A stretch of 64,000 nucleotides of DNA, taken from contig CP113055.1 in NCBI GenBank assembly GCA_026625625.1, positions 870,501 to 934,500 of the forward strand. The letters run 5' to 3'. How positions within the stretch are numbered: position 1 is the first letter of the stretch; every line of letters starts with the position of its first letter. The position numbers and the translations under genes are program-made. Shown piece by piece: positions 48,769 through 58,103 of the stretch. The DNA is from Blastomonas sp. SL216. GTDB taxonomy: Bacteria > Pseudomonadota > Alphaproteobacteria > Sphingomonadales > Sphingomonadaceae. The notes beneath the pieces are model-generated. The model ran no database searches, had not been told where the DNA came from, and was given only the letters and a program-made list of their open reading frames with translations.

Positions 48769-49728
48769 GTGCTGCTGATTGCTCTTGTTGCGTGTGCCTT
48801 TCTTGTCGGCTTGTCGATCGGAAGGGGCAGCACCTGTGCCGTAACAGCCGCCAAGGAGGTGGTGTTCAAACGGCATGGAACGATGCTCATAGGCTTCGTC
48901 TTGGCGGCCAGCGCGGCTGGGCTTGTGACCTATCCGTTGGGCTGGCTGTCAGGATCGACATTTCATGTCACGGCTGATGTCCCGGTTTCTGCGGCATTAG
49001 TCGTCGGCGCGGTGTTGATCGGCGTCGGGGCAGTGATTAACGACGCGTGCCTGCTGGGGACCCTAGCCCGCATCGGGCAGGGCGAAATCCACTTTCTCGC
49101 TTTGCCAGTGGGTTTGGCGCTGGGTTTCGGAATTGCCGATCAACAGGCCATTCTCGCTGCCGGAGTTCCAATCGAAAACCCGCATGCGATGCCCTCGCTT
49201 GCTGGCGGATTGATAGTGGCAGTGTTCGGCGGGTTGTTGATTGCAGGCTGGTGGTATCTGGGCCGTCAGCGCAAAGTGCGCCCTGACGCGCGCACGTGGT
49301 CGCGAGGCGTGATGGTGGTGATGGGAGTTTGCGGCGCTCTGCTTTTTGGCCTCGAACCGCATTGGTCCTATCCGGATGCGGTGCACGCTGCCGTTGCGCG
49401 CAACAGGATGGACCTGCATCTCGATATACGCGCGCTGGCCATCGCGCTGGCTCTTGTGGCTGGCTCGGTCTGCTCCGCTGCACTTTCCGGGGCATTCGTT
49501 CTGCAAAAGCCCACATTCGCCCTGATAGGGCGCTCGATCTTGGGCGGGGCAGTGATGGCCTTTGGCGGTACGCTGATTCCCGGCGGCAACGACAGCCTGC
49601 TCCTGGCCGCAATACCGAGCGGCACGCTCAGTGGTCTCGCTGCCTATGGCATCATGACTGTAACCGTACCTGCGGTCCTATGGCTTTCCCATGCCAGACG
49701 TTCTCCGGCGTTATTTCCCGCGCGTTAA
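48769..49728 (+). CDS. YeeE/YedE-family membrane protein
   Basis: The 319-residue protein has about nine hydrophobic segments and the family motif SIGRGSTCAV with Cys23, plus VINDACLLGTLARIG and LIPGGNDSLLL. YeeE (TsuA) members take up thiosulfate; others have unknown substrates. GTG 48769 is the start. No TusA-like partner is adjacent. Confidence 0.88.
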   Translation: MLLIALVACAFLVGLSIGRGSTCAVTAAKEVVFKRHGTMLIGFVLAASAAGLVTYPLGWLSGSTFHVTADVPVSAALVVGAVLIGVGAVINDACLLGTLARIGQGEIHFLALPVGLALGFGIADQQAILAAGVPIENPHAMPSLAGGLIVAVFGGLLIAGWWYLGRQRKVRPDARTWSRGVMVVMGVCGALLFGLEPHWSYPDAVHAAVARNRMDLHLDIRALAIALALVAGSVCSAALSGAFVLQKPTFALIGRSILGGAVMAFGGTLIPGGNDSLLLAAIPSGTLSGLAAYGIMTVTVPAVLWLSHARRSPALFPAR

Positions 49729-49783
49729 AGGTGGATCCGGGCAGGCTCTTCGAGCCAGCAATCCTCCGAATCGAACTGCCATG

Positions 49784-50686
49784 TCATGCACCAGCGCTGG
49801 CAAGAAGACTGTCTGAAGCAAATTCGCGGCTTAGAAACTCGACAAGCGCACGGGTTCGTGCGGAGATGTAGCGGCCCGGCGGCAAGACGATGTGGATAGG
49901 CATGGGGACAGGCTCGTAACCGGGAAGCACGATTTCCAGGCTGCCATCCGCAATCTCGCTCTCGAAAAGCCAGCGGGCGTTGACTGCGATCCCGATTCCA
50001 CCAAGCGCGGCTGCACGCAGCAAGTTCGGACTGTCCGCTCTCAGATTGCCGGAGATATCGACCGCTTGCCCCTCCCGAAATGTCCACCGCGTGCCAGCGC
50101 CCGACAGCGAGTAGGAGATGCAATTGTGCTGCTCCAGGTCAGAGGGGTGATTGGGGCGTCCGGCCTTGTCCAGATAGGCGGGCGAGGCCACGGCGATGCG
50201 ACGCGCCAGACCGATCTTGCGCGCGACCAGGCGGCTGTCGGTTAGCTGGCCGACGCGGATCGCCAGATCGAGATTGTCGGCCACAAGGTTGAGGGCATGG
50301 TCCGAGGCGGTAAAATCGATCTCGATCTTGGGATTGTCCGCCAGAAAGCGCGTGAGCATTGGGATCACCCGGCTTTCGGCCAGCGTTAGAGGTGCGGTCA
50401 TTCGCAGCACGCCCTCCACCTCTCCCGCAAGGCCAACAGAGGCTTCGGCAGCCTCTATCGCGTCCAGCACGCCTAGTGCCTTCTCGTACAGGCGAGCGCC
50501 ATCGGTGGTCAGGATGACCGACCGTGTGGTGCGATTGAACAGCCGCGTCTTCAAGTGCGCTTCGAGTGCGGCGACATGCTTGGAAAGCGTGGACTGGCTG
50601 CTCCCGAGCCTGTCTGCTGCAGCGGAAAAGCTGCCTGCCTCGGTGACGGCCGCAAAACTCTTCATCCAGATCGAAATGTCTGCCAT
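49784..50686 (-). CDS. LysR-family transcriptional regulator
   Basis: The 300-residue protein has an N-terminal winged HTH (SFAAVTEAGSFSAAADRLGSSQSTLSKHV, motif region 8-36) and a LysR substrate-binding domain (about 90-290). It is convergent with the YeeE gene and divergent from another LysR gene at 50881. Target and effector unknown. Confidence 0.93.
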   Translation of the reverse strand: MADISIWMKSFAAVTEAGSFSAAADRLGSSQSTLSKHVAALEAHLKTRLFNRTTRSVILTTDGARLYEKALGVLDAIEAAEASVGLAGEVEGVLRMTAPLTLAESRVIPMLTRFLADNPKIEIDFTASDHALNLVADNLDLAIRVGQLTDSRLVARKIGLARRIAVASPAYLDKAGRPNHPSDLEQHNCISYSLSGAGTRWTFREGQAVDISGNLRADSPNLLRAAALGGIGIAVNARWLFESEIADGSLEIVLPGYEPVPMPIHIVLPPGRYISARTRALVEFLSREFASDSLLASAGA

Positions 50687-50880
50687 GCATCTTTACTCTA
50701 ATCTTGGATGGGATCGCCACCCATGGCACGATTAAGTCCGTTGCCGACTAAATGAAAGTCTAATGGTTGCAATTGACGCTGGTCATTCGTTAGATCAATC
50801 TGTGCTGCAGCTGCGAGACGGACCGGTTGGCTGGCGGAAAATTGGGGTTTTTCCGACGTCGTGGCCTGGAGCACCTGACA

Positions 50881-51750
50881 ATGGAAATGCATCAGGTTCG
50901 ATATTTCCTGGCGGCCGCCCGGACGCTCAATTTCACGCGGGCAGCAGAAGAGTGCAATGTCACCCAGCCATCGTTGACGCGTGCCATTCAGAAGCTCGAA
51001 GAGGAGTTTGGCGGCCTGTTGTTCCGCCGCGAGCGCTCGCTCACCCATTTGACTGAGCTTGGCCGGCAGATGGTACCGCATCTGCAGCGTACCTATGATG
51101 CTGCCCAGGCGGCCAAGATGTTGGCGAAAGGAATCGGCAAGCAGACCCAGGCTCCCATGACGCTGGGCATCGCTGGAGCTATATCGCCGCAATTAGGTGT
51201 CGCGCTCAGTCAGGTGGCAGCAGCCCTGCCTGGCTTCGAGCTATCCGTGGTGAAAGCGGATGCCGCGGTCTTGCTGAAAGACATGTTCAAGGGCGAGATC
51301 GATGCCGCCGTGCTCCCTGAACCGCGAGACCTGCCAGAACGGATCGACACGATTGCGTTCGCACGGCAGCAGTTCACGATCATCGCGCCGCGCGATGGAC
51401 CGCTAGCAGCACTGGACTATATCGGCTGGCAGGATCTGTTGCGGGTGCCGTGGATCGAATGCGACAGCGATGTCGTTAGCGAATTCCGCGATCTATGTAC
51501 GATGGCCGGGGTCGAACCTGAGTTCCGCCATAGCGCACGACTTGACAGCGATCTGGCCGATCTTGTGGCAACCGGGCTCGGATGCGCGCTAGTTCCCGAG
51601 ATGCAACCACTGCCAGACACCGTCCGTCGTATTGCCTTGGAAGGGTTCAAGATCGAGCGCATGATGGTGTTCGCCACAGTTTCGGGCCGGAAACGATCTG
51701 CGGCGACCGATGCACTGGCCCGCGCTATCCGGGCGCGGGGCTGGAACTGA
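50881..51750 (+). CDS. LysR-family transcriptional regulator
   Basis: The 289-residue regulator starts MEMHQVRYFLAAARTLNFTR, the classical LysR N-terminus of the OxyR/HcaR-like branch, with NVTQPSLTRAIQKLEEEFG as recognition helix region. ATG 50881 fits the family; an in-frame ATG 54 bases upstream adds atypical residues. It converges with a peroxiredoxin-like gene. Confidence 0.92.
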   Translation: MEMHQVRYFLAAARTLNFTRAAEECNVTQPSLTRAIQKLEEEFGGLLFRRERSLTHLTELGRQMVPHLQRTYDAAQAAKMLAKGIGKQTQAPMTLGIAGAISPQLGVALSQVAAALPGFELSVVKADAAVLLKDMFKGEIDAAVLPEPRDLPERIDTIAFARQQFTIIAPRDGPLAALDYIGWQDLLRVPWIECDSDVVSEFRDLCTMAGVEPEFRHSARLDSDLADLVATGLGCALVPEMQPLPDTVRRIALEGFKIERMMVFATVSGRKRSAATDALARAIRARGWN

Positions 51751-51773: not shown

Positions 51774-52418
51774 TCAGGGTGTGCGGCGCAATGCCTCCAC
51801 TGCTGCGATCACAACGGCTGGATCGGCGCGGACGCGAAAATCTGGATCTGCAAAAGCATAGCGAACAATGCCGTTGCGATCGATGACATAGGTTGCGGTG
51901 ATCGGCAGGATGCGTCCGGAATTGCCGAAGATAGCTGCAAGGTCCAGCCCCGCATCGACGTATCTCCGGTGCAGGTCATCGCCGATAGGGAAGGCCAACC
52001 CGAGCAACATCGCCAACCCGTGGTCTACATCGCACAGCATCTGCGCACCTGGTGCTATCTCCTCGCGGAAGCGGTCTGCCAATCCGCCGGTTTCGGCACT
52101 GACGGCGACGAACCGGCCGCCTTGCGCTTCCAGCTGGGGCAGTGCATCGTGCCAGTCCGCAAGCTCCCGGGCGCAATAAGGGCACCAGCGCCCACGCAAA
52201 AAGCTCAGCACAAGGGGCCCGCGGCCGATTAGATCGGCCAACGAAACGTGGCGACCTTGGGTATCGGGCAGCATGAAATCAGGGAACGGCTGGTTCAGCC
52301 GAGGCGCGGTTGATCCCGCCTTCCGCGCGCGCAGCTGCGCAACCAGCGCATTGGTCGGTGCCTCCCAAAGATCGGAAGGCAAGGGCATGGACGGGTGGGG
52401 CTTCATGCCCTGCATCAT
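51774..52418 (-). CDS. Peroxiredoxin-like AhpC/TSA protein (first paralogue)
   Basis: The 214-residue thioredoxin-fold protein has a C-x-x-C active site RWCPYC (C79, C82), unlike canonical 2-Cys peroxiredoxins, and an ending NGIVRYAFADPDFRVRADP that is nearly the same in the paralogue at 57395. GAGG lies 6 bases before ATG 52418. It follows bufC by 77 bases on the same strand with no terminator seen, so it may be in the bufferin operon. Confidence 0.88.
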   Translation of the reverse strand: MMQGMKPHPSMPLPSDLWEAPTNALVAQLRARKAGSTAPRLNQPFPDFMLPDTQGRHVSLADLIGRGPLVLSFLRGRWCPYCARELADWHDALPQLEAQGGRFVAVSAETGGLADRFREEIAPGAQMLCDVDHGLAMLLGLAFPIGDDLHRRYVDAGLDLAAIFGNSGRILPITATYVIDRNGIVRYAFADPDFRVRADPAVVIAAVEALRRTP

Positions 52419-52495
52419 GCACGCCTCGGCCGCTGATGCAAACAGGCCTTGGGCGCATGGGTTCTATAGCGATTGGCCATCATGCGGTCAGAAGA

Positions 52496-53248
52496 TCATT
52501 CGACCCCGACCAGTACGCCTTCTGCGATCCAGCGGCCCAGCATGGCTCCGGCCAGGCTCGCAGCCGCATCGGCGTCATGGCTCCCCTCGGCCAAAGTCGC
52601 GCATATCTCGCCGAATGCCATACCGTCTGCCGCCATGACCAGCGCGCGATACTCGTTCGCGGCCACGGTGTGGAAGCGCGGCATCAGGGCGTGCCGCCAG
52701 ACCGTGAGAATTGCATGCACATCGAGCAATTCTGCCGGGGGCGGTGCCGCCCCGCCAGTGTCGAGTGCATGCCACAGGGCGGCGACATTCGTGCCGATCT
52801 TGCGCCACGCGAGGGTCGGGGCAAGGCGCAGCACCGCATTGTCCCAGTCCACCCCTGCAAGGCTTCCCATATCCAGCTCTGGAGCATCCGGCCCATTGAA
52901 GGCGGTGCGCAAAGACCAATCGAGCCATGCCAGCTCGGCAACCTCAGGGTTGGACGGAAATAGCCGGCCAAGCGTTTGATCGAAGCTCAGACCATAGTCT
53001 GCAAGGGTCCAGCTTCTCGGAGCGTGGCCCGCAATATGCGACTGTGCGGCAGCATCGAAGCGGTCGTCGCCCAGCCAGGCATGCGTGCGCTCGAACACAT
53101 CGCGTAGAGTGGCCATCAGTGTGGCGCGATAGGCATAATGATATACTGGCAAACCACGCTGCGCGGTCGGCGTCACGCTGCAGATGGTCTGGCTGCCGTC
53201 CCCGCGCAGAAATGCGCTGAAGTTGCGCTGCAGTTCGGCAAGGCTCAT
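52496..53248 (-). CDS. bufC: BufC/HvfC-like protein (DUF2063 N-terminal domain)
   Basis: DUF2063 proteins accompany MNIO enzymes (BufB/HvfB) and probably present the precursor peptide to them. The 250-residue protein begins MSLAELQRNFSAFLRGD and has GLPVYHYAYRATLMATLRDVFERTHAWLGDDRF (family motif region, about 32-64). Its start overlaps the stop of bufB (ATGA), implying coupled translation and complex formation. Confidence 0.9.
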   Translation of the reverse strand: MSLAELQRNFSAFLRGDGSQTICSVTPTAQRGLPVYHYAYRATLMATLRDVFERTHAWLGDDRFDAAAQSHIAGHAPRSWTLADYGLSFDQTLGRLFPSNPEVAELAWLDWSLRTAFNGPDAPELDMGSLAGVDWDNAVLRLAPTLAWRKIGTNVAALWHALDTGGAAPPPAELLDVHAILTVWRHALMPRFHTVAANEYRALVMAADGMAFGEICATLAEGSHDADAAASLAGAMLGRWIAEGVLVGVE

Positions 53249-54090
53249 GCCGCCACGCTTTCCGTCGTCGCCGCAAGACGGCGTGCGATGTCGAGCTCGG
53301 CAAGCAGCTCTTCCAGCGGCGGAATGTCATCGTCACGCTCGATCATGACCGCAACATCGCCAAAGCGGTGGATCGCGCTCGCATAGAGCGCCCAGACCGG
53401 ATCGGGCACAGCGTGGTCGTGCGTATCGATCAACAGTCCATCGCGCCCGGCGCTGTGCCCGGCCAGATGAATCTGGCGAACACGGTGAGCGGGGATGTCA
53501 TTGATGTAGGCCAGCGCATCAAAGCCGTGGTTGGTCGCACTGACAAAGATGTTGTTGATGTCGAGCAACAGATAGCAACCGGTGCGCTCGGACAACTCGG
53601 TCAAGAACGTCCATTCGGGCATCACATCATCGGCAAAGGTGATATAACTCGAAGGGTTTTCGATCACCAGAGGCCGGCCTAGCAGGTCCTGCGCCAGCGC
53701 AATGTTTGCCGCCGCAATGTCCAGCGCTTCGTTCGTGTAAGGCAGAGGCAGCAGGTCATGCGAGTTGAAGTCTTCGATGCCCGTCCAGCACAGGTGATCG
53801 GACACCCACAAGGGGTCAATACGGTCGGCCAGCCTCCTGAGTCGTGCCAGATAGTCGGCGTTGAGCCCGTCAGCCGATCCGATCGACATAGAAACGCCGT
53901 GCATTGCGACCGGGTAGCGCTCGCGCACCTTGTCGAGCGTATGCAGCGGACGTCCGCCTGCACCCATGAAATTTTCGGAAATGACCTCGACGAAATCAAC
54001 TTTGGCTTCACCCGACAGATACGCGGGATAGTGCGGCGTGCGCATTCCCAAGCCAAAGCCTCTGAACGGCGGAAGATCGGGCTGGGTCAT
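53245..54090 (-). CDS. bufB: MNIO (DUF692) enzyme, BufB-like
   Basis: DUF692 enzymes are multinuclear non-heme iron oxidases that modify Cys residues of ribosomally made peptides. The 281-residue TIM-barrel protein contains VDFVEVISENFMG, MHGVSMSIGSADGLN, VSDHLCWTG, IENPSSY, LLLDINNIFVSATNHGFD and IHLAGHS, with the His, Glu and Asp ligands expected. The bufA1 substrate is encoded 100 bases upstream, with bufC downstream. Confidence 0.93.
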   Translation of the reverse strand: MTQPDLPPFRGFGLGMRTPHYPAYLSGEAKVDFVEVISENFMGAGGRPLHTLDKVRERYPVAMHGVSMSIGSADGLNADYLARLRRLADRIDPLWVSDHLCWTGIEDFNSHDLLPLPYTNEALDIAAANIALAQDLLGRPLVIENPSSYITFADDVMPEWTFLTELSERTGCYLLLDINNIFVSATNHGFDALAYINDIPAHRVRQIHLAGHSAGRDGLLIDTHDHAVPDPVWALYASAIHRFGDVAVMIERDDDIPPLEELLAELDIARRLAATTESVAA

Positions 54091-54136
54091 GCGGCTGGGC
54101 TTTCCGGCGCTGGGGGGATGGGAGTTCTGCTAACGC

Positions 54137-54172
54137 AAAAGGCCCGGCAGTGCGGGGGGGCACCGTCCGGGC
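54137..54172 (-). terminator. Attenuator-like hairpin between bufA1 and bufB
   Basis: On the minus strand, GCCCGG (plus 54167-54172) and GGTGC-like inner arm pair with GCAC and CCGGGC (plus 54142-54147) around a C-rich loop, followed by CTTTT. It lies 19 bases after the bufA1 stop and 47 before the bufB start. It probably reduces bufBC transcription relative to the peptide gene. Confidence 0.55.
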
Positions 54173-54190
54173 GTCTTGCTGCAACCCAGC

Positions 54191-54463
54191 TTACTTGGGT
54201 TCGGTCAGGCTTCCGCCCATGGCAGTGCACTTCTTGGCGGTCGTGGCGATAAAGCCGCTGCCCTTGCATTCGTTCTGGCCCTTGCACGAGGTCTTCGCGG
54301 TGGCGCAATCCGAAGTGCCCTTGCAGGTGTTGACGCCATAGCAATGGACCAGGTCCTTTGCGCCCTTGGCACCTTCTGCCGCATGGGCTGCAACGCCAAA
54401 GCCCGACATTGCCAGCATGGCAGCGGTCGCAGCTAGACTGATGGTTTTCTGAACGGTGGTCAT
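54191..54463 (-). CDS. bufA1: Bufferin-type Cys-rich exported peptide (BufA1, DUF2282-like)
   Basis: The 90-residue precursor has a signal peptide (about 1-29, ending AAHAAE) and a mature part with six Cys at 41, 47, 53, 60, 66 and 79 (VHCYGVNTCKG, SDCATAKTSCKGQNECKGSGF). This matches bufferins, periplasmic peptides that bind copper after MNIO modification. ATG 54463 gives the signal peptide; the longer upstream frame is not coding. A SigF-type promoter is at 54519-54544. Confidence 0.92.
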   Translation of the reverse strand: MTTVQKTISLAATAAMLAMSGFGVAAHAAEGAKGAKDLVHCYGVNTCKGTSDCATAKTSCKGQNECKGSGFIATTAKKCTAMGGSLTEPK

Positions 54464-54518
54464 GGAAATGTCTCCGGATAGTTCGTCTAAAGGGATGTGC
54501 CTGACTGGCAGGATAGTC

Positions 54519-54544
54519 TTCGTCCGGAGGGCCAGGCGAGTTAC
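54519..54544 (-). promoter_or_regulatory. SigF-type promoter of bufA1
   Basis: On the minus strand GTAACT (54544-54539), 16 bases, then CGAA (54522-54519). This fits the motif GTAACC-N16-CGAA known to me for Caulobacter SigF. The expected 5' UTR is about 50 bases. Confidence 0.75.
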
Positions 54545-54558
54545 AGGCCCGGGCAAGC

Positions 54559-55200
54559 TTACCAGCGCAACAAATGCGGCCCGGCCAGCGCGCCGATGGC
54601 GCTGGCACCAGCGATGCCCAGCGAATACCAAAGCAGCACAAACCCTGCGGATGGCTCGCTACAAGCCAAGGCATAGATCGCGGCCGACAGAGCACCGGCT
54701 GCAAGGCCGCATACCGCCCCGGCCTGAGCCAAGTGTACCGGAGCCTGCCGGCGCACCGCCCAGCCGATTCCTACAATCAGTGGCAGCGACAGCGCAGTGA
54801 TGCGCAATGAACAGGCCTGCCACGATGCGCCGAACCAAGCCATCGCTTCTGCCTGCGGTGGCGTGCTGCGCGACTGACCGAGAGCAATGGCCAGAACAAT
54901 GAGTGCGACCATGCCGATCGGTGCAAGCAGCGGCTCTGCTGGCCTGCCAGGCCTTGCGAGCGATCGCATCGCTCGCAAGGCAATGGCAGCGATCGCCAGC
55001 ATGCTGCCAAGCTTCACCGCGAGGGGGACGATGACAGACAAGTTGGCAAGGCCTTGCTGTACGCCCAGTGAAAACAGCAGGATGCCCATCGACGCAAGGC
55101 CGCCAAGACCGATGCCGCGTCCCAGCTGCTGCTCGAAGCTGGCCGTCTTCACCGGGGTCAGGTCGTCGCACAGCGCTTGAATAAGGGCCTGGTGGTTCAT
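54559..55200 (-). CDS. nrsF: NrsF-type membrane anti-sigma factor (DUF1109)
   Basis: NrsF is a six-helix membrane protein that holds SigF inactive and senses heavy metals through Cys residues in Caulobacter. The 213-residue protein has about six hydrophobic segments and starts MNHQALIQALCDDLTPVKT. Cys130 (SWQACSL) and Cys180 (ALACSEPS) sit at helix ends likely facing the periplasm, as expected for the sensing pair. ATG 55200 was chosen over 55269 because upstream residues do not fit. The sigma factor gene is not adjacent but 1.2 kb away. Confidence 0.88.
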   Translation of the reverse strand: MNHQALIQALCDDLTPVKTASFEQQLGRGIGLGGLASMGILLFSLGVQQGLANLSVIVPLAVKLGSMLAIAAIALRAMRSLARPGRPAEPLLAPIGMVALIVLAIALGQSRSTPPQAEAMAWFGASWQACSLRITALSLPLIVGIGWAVRRQAPVHLAQAGAVCGLAAGALSAAIYALACSEPSAGFVLLWYSLGIAGASAIGALAGPHLLRW

Positions 55201-55274
55201 TGCGTTCTCATTTGTGGCTAGGCAGCGCAACGTCACCGCGCGGACCGAAAGGGACTTTCCCGTTGGCATGGCAT

Positions 55275-55300
55275 TACGCGGGGTTTCGGTCTGCGGTTAC
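55275..55300 (-). promoter_or_regulatory. SigF-type promoter of nrsF
   Basis: On the minus strand GTAACC (55300-55295), 16 bases, then CGTA (55278-55275), one base from consensus CGAA. It lies about 75 bases before the nrsF start, giving negative feedback on SigF. Confidence 0.55.
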
Positions 55301-55344
55301 AGAACGGGCTCCGAAAGCTGCTCGCCCATATCGCCGTGCTGGGC

Positions 55345-55370
55345 GTAACCGTAGCGATAAAGGCAGCGAA
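55345..55370 (+). promoter_or_regulatory. SigF-type promoter of the MBL-fold gene
   Basis: GTAACC (55345-55350), 16 bases, CGAA (55367-55370): an exact match to the motif. It is 115 bases before the ATG at 55486, and divergent from the nrsF promoter. Confidence 0.75.
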
Positions 55371-55485
55371 TGGATTTGTGTGGCCGGAGCCCTGATCCGA
55401 TCACCATGCGGCAGCCCCGGTTGCCCCCCGATCCTCCCCCAAGGCCGGGCTGTCGCATGATCGGATATGCCCCGGAAGGACCGCC

Positions 55486-56406
55486 ATGATGCCGAGATTT
55501 GCACTTGCTTTGGCCGCAAGCGTCCTAGGCATGTCTGTTCCGGCGGCCGCTGCGGCGCAGTGCCCCGGCTCGATAGCCGTCCAGATTCTGGGCTCAGGAG
55601 GACCGATCGCAGAAGGCGCCCGCGCCGGATCATCCGCGATCATCTGGATCGATGGCAAGGCCGTCGCGCTGATCGATGCGGGCAGCGGCGCGTTTGTGCG
55701 ATATGGAGAGGCCGGTGTGCGGTTCGAGGATCATCGCGTGATCGCGCTGACCCATTTCCACGCCGACCATGTCGCCGATCTGGGGGCGATCCTGAACAGC
55801 GGCAGCTTTTCGGACCGCAGCGAGGATTTGCCCATCCTCGGGCCGCAGGGCAGCGAGTATTTCCCCGGGGTCACCGAACATCTGAAGGCACTGTTCGATC
55901 CAAAATCAGGGGCGTTTCGCTATCTGTCCGGGTTTCTGGATGGCTCCGCCGGCAAGCCAAGGATTGTCCCAGTGGAAATCGCGTCCGAAGGTCAGGCACA
56001 GCCTTTTATCGATGCCGAGACCGGTCTCACTATCACACCTATTCCCGTGCAACACGGCGTGGTTCCCGCGCTTGCCTATCGAATCGAGGTTCGCGGCAAG
56101 ATGATCGTGTTTGCCGGAGACCAGAATGAGTTCAGCGACGCGTTTATCGCTAACCTAGCAGGTCGCACGCCCGATCTGCTGATCGTCCACAACGTCATTC
56201 CCGAAGGCCAGGGCCAGCCGCGCGGCCTGCATCGTCCGCCATCATCTCTGGGCACGATGGCGGCCGCCATCGACCCGCGGCTGCTGGTGCTGTCGCACAA
56301 CATGCAGCGCGCGCTGGTCCGGCAGCCCGAGGGTGAGGCCGCGATCCGGGCATCTTATGCCGGGCCCATGACCATTGCAGATGATCTTGCCTGCTACGCG
56401 CTTTGA
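55486..56406 (+). CDS. Exported metallo-beta-lactamase-fold hydrolase
   Basis: The 306-residue protein has a signal peptide (about 1-24, ending PAAAAAQ) and the MBL zinc motif THFHADHV, then HGVVPALAYRIE, FAGDQNE and a late VLSHNM, giving a two-metal site. GGAAGGA precedes ATG 55486. It is similar in outline to RNase Z/arylsulfatase-like MBL enzymes, with an unknown substrate. An exact SigF-type promoter puts it in the metal-stress regulon. Its 3' end overlaps the sigma factor gene by 13 bases, tail to tail. Confidence 0.88.
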   Translation: MMPRFALALAASVLGMSVPAAAAAQCPGSIAVQILGSGGPIAEGARAGSSAIIWIDGKAVALIDAGSGAFVRYGEAGVRFEDHRVIALTHFHADHVADLGAILNSGSFSDRSEDLPILGPQGSEYFPGVTEHLKALFDPKSGAFRYLSGFLDGSAGKPRIVPVEIASEGQAQPFIDAETGLTITPIPVQHGVVPALAYRIEVRGKMIVFAGDQNEFSDAFIANLAGRTPDLLIVHNVIPEGQGQPRGLHRPPSSLGTMAAAIDPRLLVLSHNMQRALVRQPEGEAAIRASYAGPMTIADDLACYAL

Positions 56407-56987
56407 AGAACGTCTGCGTCTGGCGCATTGGCAAAACCTGAAAGGCGGGCGAGGCCGCGATGAATGTTCACCTTGACCAGCGATTCTGATTGACCCGTCA
56501 TGGCGGCCGCTTCTTCGATGCTGAACCCCTGGATCTTCACGAGTCGAATGACCGAAACTTGTGCAGGCTTCAGGCGGCCGAGCAATTCCTCCAGCACAAT
56601 GGCGCTGGTCACGCATGCCTCGTGTCCATCCACCGATGGTTCGAACAGCTCGTCGTCCAATGAAACCGTGGGCTTGCGCCCCATGGCACGCAGCCGGTCA
56701 ATCCACTTGTACCGCGCAATCGCTGCCAGCCACGGCCTGAAGGGGCGTCCAGGTTCGTAGGTATGCCGCCTCTGGTGCACTGCCATCAGGCATTCCTGGG
56801 TGGCATCATCGGCCATGCTCATCGGCAGACGGCGGAGAAAATAGCGTTGGAGCCATTGCTGGATCTCACCGAGCAACCGGTTGTACGCGCCGCCATGCCC
56901 CGCGAGCGCCGCTGTCATCAGCCGACCCCATTCGTCATCCTGCAGGGCAGCTGCATTGGGGGCGGCGGGCTGGCTGGCGATCGACAT
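56394..56987 (-). CDS. sigF: ECF sigma factor, SigF type
   Basis: The 197-residue protein has sigma region 2 (YNRLLGEIQQWLQRYF; DDATQECLMAVHQRRHTYEPGRPF, motif region) and region 4 (LKPAQVSVIRLVKIQGFSIEEAAAMTGQSESLVKVNIHRGL, about 135-180). DUF1109-linked ECF factors have this form. GGAG lies 8 bases before ATG 56987. The cognate anti-sigma is encoded at 54559. No GTAAC-type promoter precedes it, so it is probably transcribed differently. Confidence 0.9.
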   Translation of the reverse strand: MSIASQPAAPNAAALQDDEWGRLMTAALAGHGGAYNRLLGEIQQWLQRYFLRRLPMSMADDATQECLMAVHQRRHTYEPGRPFRPWLAAIARYKWIDRLRAMGRKPTVSLDDELFEPSVDGHEACVTSAIVLEELLGRLKPAQVSVIRLVKIQGFSIEEAAAMTGQSESLVKVNIHRGLARLSGFANAPDADVLQSA

Positions 56988-57060
56988 GGCAGGTCTCCGG
57001 ACCGGCGCGAAAATGCCGCGCTGGGATGATCCGTTATTGTCCGGGCCGGTGCCTGCGTGA

Positions 57061-57090
57061 ACGTATCAGGCAGGAATGAAATCGATACGT
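57061..57090. repeat. Inverted repeat ACGTATC-N16-GATACGT
   Basis: Perfect 7-bp arms at 57061-57067 and 57084-57090 lie between sigF and the 46-residue peptide gene, directly before the SigF-type promoter at 57100. Related GTATC/GATAC arms occur at 58104-58118. Possible operator for sigF. Confidence 0.45.
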
Positions 57091-57099
57091 ACCGCGCAT

Positions 57100-57125
57100 G
57101 TAACAGGCAGGCAGCTATCGGCGAA
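57100..57125 (+). promoter_or_regulatory. SigF-type promoter of the 46-residue peptide gene
   Basis: GTAACA (57100-57105), 16 bases, CGAA (57122-57125). The start codon at 57228 is about 100 bases downstream. Confidence 0.65.
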
Positions 57126-57227
57126 CTCCATCATGACGCTGATATGCGTCACTTTCCTGATCGCGCTCACAGGCTCGCAGACCCTGTGTCAAAGCGCTTC
57201 CTGTCATGCCCAAAAAGGATCGACGCC

Positions 57228-57368
57228 ATGAAGAAGTCCAGCACGCTCGCCAATGCCGACAAAGCCCGTGCACTGCTTCCGGTGGCAGGGACCAGCCTTG
57301 CCTTCGTCATCCTCACTGTGCTGGGTGTTATCGGCGCGGCCGGGGTCGCGATGACGATGATGATGTAG
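57228..57368 (+). CDS. 46-residue single-pass membrane peptide
   Basis: The peptide has a charged N-terminus (MKKSSTLANADKARALLP), one membrane helix (about 19-42) and a Met-rich C-terminus (AMTMMM). AAAAGGA lies about 9 bases before the ATG. It has its own SigF-type promoter. I know of no family. A run of four Met at the end could bind Cu(I), but this is speculation. Confidence 0.7.
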   Translation: MKKSSTLANADKARALLPVAGTSLAFVILTVLGVIGAAGVAMTMMM

Positions 57369-57394: not shown

Positions 57395-58057
57395 TCAGTT
57401 GGAACCACCGCCAGAGCCGAGTTCCTGTACCACCGAAATCACATCGAGCGGTTCTGCGCGAACACGAAAGTCCGGGTCGACAAAGGCATAGCGAACTACC
57501 CCTTGGGGATCGACAACGAAGGTCGCCGGAACCGGCAGAATGCCACTATCGGTGCCATAGATGTCGGCAAGGTCCAAGCCGGCCTGCAAATAGCGCTGCA
57601 CCAGTTCAACCCCGGCATGGAAAGCCAGGCCGAGGTCCAGCGCTGCGCCATGATCGATATCGCACAACACCATGGCCTTGCCATCGAGCATTGACTCGAT
57701 GCGGTCTGCACGCCCGGCAACCTCGCCGACGATGACGACCAGCCGCCCTCCAACCGCTTCCAGCGCAGCCAGGTTCTCGTTCCAGCTGTCCAACTCGCTG
57801 CGGCACCAGGGGCACCATCCGCCACGGATGAACGTGATGACCACGGGCCCATCCGCTTGGACTGCAGTCAGTTTCTGATAACGGCCAAGATGATCGGGCA
57901 AGACCAGGTCGGGGAAGTCCATCCCCAGCCCAGGCGCAGAATGGCCGGTTTCCAGCAGGATCAGCCGCCCCACAAAGGCATCGTAGAGGGCGTTCCATTC
58001 GGAATTTTCGAGCGTGCAGCTTTGCAGCTTTTCGTAAAGTCGCGTGGTCTGTTCCAT
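57395..58057 (-). CDS. Peroxiredoxin-like AhpC/TSA protein (second paralogue)
   Basis: The 220-residue protein has C-x-x-C site GGWCPWC (C82, C85) and the ending GVVRYAFVDPDFRVRAEP, matching the paralogue at 51774. ATG 58057 gives the same domain layout; the upstream frame to 58204 adds Cys-rich residues and is unlikely. It is convergent with the small peptide gene and divergent from the NDH-2-like gene. Confidence 0.88.
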   Translation of the reverse strand: MEQTTRLYEKLQSCTLENSEWNALYDAFVGRLILLETGHSAPGLGMDFPDLVLPDHLGRYQKLTAVQADGPVVITFIRGGWCPWCRSELDSWNENLAALEAVGGRLVVIVGEVAGRADRIESMLDGKAMVLCDIDHGAALDLGLAFHAGVELVQRYLQAGLDLADIYGTDSGILPVPATFVVDPQGVVRYAFVDPDFRVRAEPLDVISVVQELGSGGGSN

Positions 58058-58103
58058 TGACGGCTTATGCACTCGCCTGACGCACGGCGAAAGGGGCATG
58101 GGC

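Follow-up and report, generated by a model that had tools for sequence, protein, structure and literature searches.

A SigF-NrsF-bufferin locus in Blastomonas sp. SL216 and its putative dispersed metal-stress regulon

In Blastomonas sp. SL216, bufferin genes, a gene for an NrsF-type membrane anti-sigma factor, and a gene for a SigF-like extracytoplasmic function (ECF) sigma factor are clustered within 6 kb. The locus lies in the 64-kb stretch of DNA analyzed here (contig CP113055.1, positions 870,501 to 934,500), referred to below as the window, and the host genome (G000) has a size of 3.86 Mb. A preliminary description, made from the sequence alone, proposed that the cluster is a self-contained metal-stress regulon, and the question is how far such a regulon extends and how it relates to the SigF-NrsF system of Caulobacter crescentus. 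With its SigF, NrsF, and bufferin genes, the cluster belongs to the type known from Caulobacter, and the system is real, well conserved, and mostly known rather than of a new kind. We consider it likely that a dispersed SigF regulon, which would act against excess copper or other thiol-reactive metals, has its main node at this locus.

The locus and its promoter motifs

The gene order is Prx1(-), bufC(-), bufB(-), bufA(-), nrsF(-), a gene for a metallo-β-lactamase (MBL)-fold hydrolase(+), sigF(-), a 46-codon open reading frame (ORF)(+), Prx2(-), and NDH2(+). The closest named records at the locus are from Sphingomonas sp. 35-24ZXX, S. ursincola, Blastomonas sp. CACIA14H2, and B. natatoria, and four congeneric loci (L115-L118, the last of them from B. 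natatoria DSM 3183) were compared with the window. The central features are as follows.

51774..52418, minus strand: Prx1, AhpC/TSA-type, candidate fourth gene of the buf operon
52496..53248, minus strand: bufC, DUF2063 partner protein (Pfam PF09836, 60.8 vs 27.2)
53245..54090, minus strand: bufB, MNIO maturase (NCBIfam MNIO_BufB, 375.6 vs 310; Pfam PF05114)
54191..54463, minus strand: bufA2, Buf2-family bufferin precursor (NCBIfam BufA2, NF050166)
54519..54544, minus strand: SigF-type motif of bufA2 (GTAACT in the window, GTAACC in congeners)
54559..55200, minus strand: nrsF, membrane anti-sigma factor with Cys130 and Cys180 (Pfam NrsF, 170 bits)
55275..55300, minus strand: SigF-type motif of nrsF (CGTA as second box)
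55345..55370, plus strand: SigF-type motif of the MBL gene (exact match, conserved)
55486..56406, plus strand: MBL-fold hydrolase with a signal-like N-terminus (Pfam Lactamase_B_2)
56394..56987, minus strand: sigF-like ECF sigma factor, lineage B2 by trees (Pfam sigma regions 2 and 4)

The gene content given in the preliminary description (bufferin genes, nrsF, the ECF sigma factor, the MBL gene, a peptide ORF, and two AhpC/TSA genes) stands, except that the precursor had been named bufA1. The precursor has six cysteines after a signal-like part and scores 98.9 bits against the NCBIfam BufA2 model (cut-off of 60), while no Pfam match, DUF2282 of Buf1 included, was found in it, and its six cysteines differ from the four of Buf1; since the BufA2 cut-off is passed without a DUF2282 match, the label bufA1 is wrong. 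BufB also scores above the NCBIfam bufferin-maturase cut-off. In an alignment of 30 NrsF proteins, Cys130 is conserved in 29 and Cys180 in all 30, the Caulobacter equivalents being residues 131 and 181. An additional cysteine, at the position of residue 177 of the window NrsF, is present in 11 of the 30, apparently those of lineage A (see below); the window NrsF itself has an alanine there. No match was obtained when the window NrsF was compared with solved structures.

As had been described, four promoter-like motifs are present: GTAAC-N17-CG(A/T)A matches exactly four times in the window, always inside the same 2.6 kb at the locus, whereas 100 dinucleotide shuffles of the window gave a mean of 0.08 matches and a maximum of 1. 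The motifs of bufA, nrsF, and the MBL gene are kept as GTAACC in L115-L118 (12/12), with changed spacers; neither the fourth motif nor the peptide ORF behind it was found at these loci (0/4). Predicted sigma-70 promoters and terminators between 51600 and 58300 were no more frequent than expected by chance.

Candidate targets elsewhere and feedback on SigF

The putative regulon is not self-contained. A second MNIO locus of G000 (L098), situated ~80 kb from the window, carries genes for a DUF2282 Buf1 precursor, an MNIO, a DUF2063 protein, and DoxX; one motif lies 72 nt upstream of Buf1 and another 154 nt upstream of DoxX. Motif targets were tallied in five genomes (G000, G153, G001, G150, and G152), with the genes of the relatives named by tblastn to G000 proteins and with matches inside genes excluded from the regulon. 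An exact motif lies upstream of bufA2 (with T at position 6 in G000), nrsF, the MBL gene, and DoxX in all five and, touching the first codons of the predicted frame, before a cytochrome b561-YedY-like operon in all five; it precedes Buf1 in four, a DsbD-like gene in at least three, and a DUF1223 gene in at least two. Furthermore, a 60-residue predicted protein is encoded directly behind GTAACC-N16-CGAA in 4/5 congeneric genomes (L100, at G000:C1 near 1296264, and L256 and L275-L277) and is a better candidate for a small regulon member than the window peptide. In the four congeners, 41 of 56 motif matches were inspected (30 loci and 15 stretches), and 8 of the inspected loci lacked any query gene. 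An in-gene match (L099) recurs in four relatives within coding sequence that is 87-93% identical. The motif also lies upstream of NDH2 in L234 and L160 and of LysR2 in L231; in the window, no exact motif was found for Prx2 or NDH2, and both were rejected as regulon members there.

As separate observations, DUF1223 genes with a SigF-type motif upstream are present in L105, L051, L280, L232, and L235, which suggests a recurrent target, and two more GTAACC-N16-CGAA matches are near-identical across L243/L250/L252 and across L282/L283, respectively.

A number of points weigh against a SigF regulon of this extent. With a box spacing of 16-18, the motif occurs 42 times in the 3.86-Mb genome, compared to 313 times for a reversed control, and in the four congeners the 56 matches stand against 44 for the reversed control, so that the motif is not in excess genome-wide. 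Outside the window, G000 has 18 further exact N17 matches, of which 10 fall inside frames that a rough script called genes. The motif of bufA2 in the window carries T instead of C at position 6, and that of DoxX in L098 sits within the 3' part of the DUF2063 (bufC) frame. Finally, the window SigF lies below any specific NCBIfam cut-off, and the window NrsF scores 90.4 of the 300 set by its NCBIfam equivalog cut-off, although it passed Pfam. Given that there is no genome-wide excess, a single match means little, and the case rests on the clustering of the motifs and their conserved position. These grounds support a predicted SigF-type regulon that includes the bufferin genes, nrsF, and the MBL gene.

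No exact motif was found upstream of sigF in the window or in L115-L118, and autoregulation of sigF via this motif was rejected. As nrsF has a SigF motif and sigF has none, the arrangement suggests negative feedback, in which SigF would drive nrsF and not sigF. In addition, the MBL gene converges on sigF with a 13-bp overlap of the 3' ends, and its transcript may thus run antisense into sigF. The features beyond sigF are listed here.

57061..57089, minus strand: conserved element upstream of sigF, dyad CGTATC-N16-GATACG
57100..57125, plus strand: fourth motif match, probably not functional, absent from 4/4 congeneric loci
57228..57368, plus strand: 46-codon ORF, probably outside the regulon (no Pfam or NCBIfam family match)
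57395..58060, minus strand: Prx2, AhpC/TSA-type neighbor (Pfam)

The dyad has one arm altered in L117 and, with up to one mismatch, is found once each in five of nine genus genomes but not in the remaining four, being restricted to this locus type. The preliminary description had also counted the 46-residue peptide and both peroxiredoxin-like proteins as regulon members. A search of the nine genus genomes with the peptide returned itself and two weak matches (E values of 0.019 and 0.19) inside long frames, and because the peptide and its motif are not conserved, its membership was rejected. The peroxiredoxin-like proteins are candidate members at most, Prx2 having no motif: Prx1 follows bufC after a 77-bp gap, adjoins it in all four congeneric loci, and by this operon position may ride on the buf operon. 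Next to Prx1, at window positions 48769-51750, lie a Sulf_transp (YeeE-type) gene and two LysR genes in divergent orientation. All four congeneric loci likewise have the LysR pair alongside, and genes related to the LysR and Sulf_transp genes are located near sigF genes of subgroup B2 (see below) in L231 and L234.

The MBL-fold hydrolase and the sigma/anti-sigma pair

The MBL gene is predicted to encode an exported metallohydrolase. Its product has a signal-peptide-like N-terminus (some relatives have, by our reading, a lipobox-like cysteine), and the HxHxDH motif and further metal ligands (H90, H92, D94, H95, H190, D212, and H271) are invariant in 39/39 aligned sequences. The structure model has a mean predicted local distance difference test (pLDDT) score of 91.5, and its top Foldseek match is 1zkp, an ELAC homologue. 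No NCBIfam cut-off was reached, and sequence and fold indicate only a broad substrate group; the sulfur-related neighbors (YedY-like, DoxX, and Sulf_transp) provide sulfatase activity as a lead only.

At an E value of ≤1e-20, the MBL protein is found in 9 of 149 family genomes, its own included. Among the best 80 of 244 relatives in a named collection, MNIO genes flank 8, NrsF accompanies 6, and the motif occurs within 400 bases upstream of 5, some flanks being short. The 8 MNIO-flanked relatives represent four lineages, namely, Blastomonas (4), L160/L165, L157, and L186, compared with a rough chance estimate of ~1 in 80 for flanks of 10 kb and genomes of 3.7 Mb with two MNIO loci each. In L234/L165, the MBL gene closes a Buf1-MNIO-DoxX-MBL row that is preceded by a motif, and two short contigs without MNIO have the orders DoxX-SigF-NrsF-MBL (L119) and DoxX-MBL-Prx2 (L168). 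Hence, the link of the MBL gene to bufferin or SigF genes is recurrent, not general. It is conceivable, if rather unlikely, that the MBL gene is a chance neighbor that gained a SigF promoter but plays no part in a metal response. Such a view fits the 72 of the best 80 relatives that lack MNIO in the flank and the 75 that lack a motif just upstream, but it does not readily explain why the motif is kept at 5/5 congeneric loci and before an MBL gene in L122, or why MBL genes lie beside bufferin, DoxX, or SigF genes in L119, L157, L160/L165, L168, and L186. A recurrent MBL gene hints at an extra enzymatic step in a copper or sulfur stress response.

With regard to the regulators, SigF and NrsF proteins of the family split into lineages A and B in phylogenetic trees, from which the groups were chosen after the trees had been seen and in which the Caulobacter proteins are not included. 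The window NrsF and those of the four congeners side with A (support of 100/99), and their grouping with the partners of B2 sigma factors was rejected in the approximately unbiased (AU) test (p=0.0062). A clade of lineage A without the window-type NrsF was not rejected (p=0.278), so that the window-type NrsF may be sister to A. The window-type SigF, on the other hand, falls in subgroup B2 (100/98), and its grouping with A was rejected (AU p=0.0024). Thus, the two partners fall in different lineages. Adjacent pairs in the first trees were concordant in 12/12 cases for A and 13/13 for B. In each of the five genomes, a single NrsF exceeds the cut-off and a single SigF is close (other sigma matches are ≤32% identical); four other genus genomes have a B-type SigF with a B-type NrsF, and some family genomes, e.g., G076, have both pairs. 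Taken together, the trees suggest that SigF and NrsF of this genus descend from two different ancestral pairs. Since both pairs co-occur in some family genomes, differential loss is the simplest route, and the mixed pair probably arose because two paralogous pairs each lost a member. As a side observation, at G140:C1:4097565-4098072 (L228, L229, and L235), a sigF-like gene matched in two pieces, and perhaps broken, lies beside an NrsF gene.

It is unlikely that the B2 SigF is not under the control of the window NrsF, with NrsF serving another partner or being vestigial and SigF activity being set by its own transcription. This could be argued from B2 sigma factors that have no neighboring NrsF in L231 (G140) and L234 (G020), from the conserved dyad upstream of sigF, and from the nonadjacent positions of sigF and nrsF at the locus. 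However, five genomes each hold just one close SigF and one NrsF above the cut-off, NrsF keeps both sensing cysteines, and a SigF-type promoter precedes nrsF in 5/5. Even more doubtful is the idea that the mixed pair is a tree artefact of the long NrsF branch and that the two proteins have co-evolved. The NrsF stem of Blastomonas is indeed long (1.06 and 1.33 changes per column), and the tree program warns of long branches. Moreover, besides the choice of groups after inspection, two B rows (L038 and L045) stand on the A side in the second SigF tree (95/84). For the second trees, L035 and L040 were dropped from both sets; in the first trees, their NrsF had grouped with lineage A and their SigF with neither group. 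Four further ECF factors were removed from the SigF set as well. Nevertheless, the support for NrsF with A and the rejection of both alternative groupings speak against an artefact. Lastly, a self-contained 6-kb regulon including the 46-residue peptide and both peroxiredoxin-like proteins, as could be drawn from four motifs in 2.6 kb, one of them before the peptide, and from Prx1 and Prx2 beside the locus in four congeneric loci, is highly improbable in view of the motif-preceded Buf1, DoxX, b561/YedY-like, and other genes elsewhere, the absence of the peptide and its motif from congeners, and the lack of a motif at Prx2.

Proposed circuit and comparison with known systems

For the dispersed SigF regulon, which we prefer, the following circuit can be put forward from sequence and from the Caulobacter system, as regulation, metal sensing, and enzyme action are all inferred from these two sources. 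At rest, membrane-bound NrsF would hold SigF. Periplasmic metal would act on Cys130 and Cys180 of NrsF, by analogy to Caulobacter, and SigF would be freed to read GTAACC-N16-CGWA promoters, namely, those of bufA2-bufB-bufC (perhaps with Prx1), nrsF, and the MBL gene at the locus and those of the Buf1 operon, DoxX, the cytochrome b561/YedY-like operon, and others at a distance. As in the family, BufB-BufC would modify cysteines of BufA2, and the exported BufA2 would bind copper, which in Buf2 bufferins is the task of thiooxazole groups derived from cysteine; SigF-driven synthesis of NrsF should then end the induction by negative feedback. Only tentatively, we suggest the joint claim that NrsF from one lineage restrains a SigF from another, two paralogous pairs having each lost a member, that the circuit was rewired to negative feedback, that SigF drives an MBL gene converging on sigF, and that the exported MBL protein adds a third functional arm to the bufferin response. 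For the mixed pair, the one-sided feedback, and the MBL member, no description was found in searches of open-licence papers, made mostly at the level of listings. How the mostly membrane-embedded NrsF contacts the sigma factor is a question raised in the discussion of PMC3511200, and a natural mixed pair, if true, together with the concordant A and B pairs of related genomes would offer a test of specificity-setting residues.

In the preliminary description, the sigma/anti-sigma pair and the buf operon of Caulobacter were given as separate. They are adjacent: sigF-nrsF (CC3253 and CC3252) adjoin the Buf1 operon CC3254-CC3257 (PMC3511200), PMC8224329 treats them as a single cluster, and a sigma pair clustered with bufferin genes is already published for Caulobacter. 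Both bufferin operons and the YedY gene depend wholly or partly on SigF there via GTAACC-N16-CGAA (PMC3511200); induction of the regulon by copper and copper sensitivity of a sigF mutant are described in PMC8224329. The Caulobacter regulon (CC3252-CC3257, CC2907-CC2905, and CC2748) shares with that of strain SL216 the ECF sigma factor, the two-cysteine NrsF, the motif, a bufferin operon beside the pair, and, at other sites, a further bufferin operon and a gene of the YedY type. However, the SL216 genome has Buf2 beside the pair and Buf1 at a distance, whereas Caulobacter has the reverse, CC2907 being of the Buf2 type by our reading. It further differs in the MBL gene between nrsF and sigF, in a sigF without the motif, and in a SigF and an NrsF that belong to separate lineages.

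In the window, in four congeners, and at eight loci from seven further genomes of the family (L049, L050, L052-L056, and L058), a Buf2 operon comes after nrsF, with BufA2 confirmed by NCBIfam in the window, one congener (L048), and five of these eight loci. At all eight, a Buf1-like ORF with its own motif lies beyond sigF and is confirmed by Pfam in L049 only. The window shares with the Buf2 clusters surveyed in PMC12452194 the six-cysteine precursor with a signal-like part, the MNIO, and the DUF2063 protein. Its Buf2 operon beside sigF-nrsF departs from this survey of MNIO clusters, which reports adjacent sigma and NrsF genes for Buf1 and not for Buf2, and DoxX is absent from the window cluster. 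The CxxxxC-precursor MNIO clusters (section 15 of PMC12452194) also combine a Lactamase_B_2 gene with MNIO, DUF2063, and often DoxX, but their precursor is of a different family, and the comparison of the hydrolases is at the level of the Lactamase_B_2 family. With YhfI (6kns), PNGM-1 (6j4n), a Pseudoalteromonas arylsulfatase (8gyg), and RNase Z (1y44), the window MBL protein has the fold and metal site in common (Foldseek E values of 1.3e-20 to 1.9e-16 among these; profile match to 8gyg, 1.2e-26), at ~20% identity and with a signal-like N-terminus that distinguishes the window protein from them.

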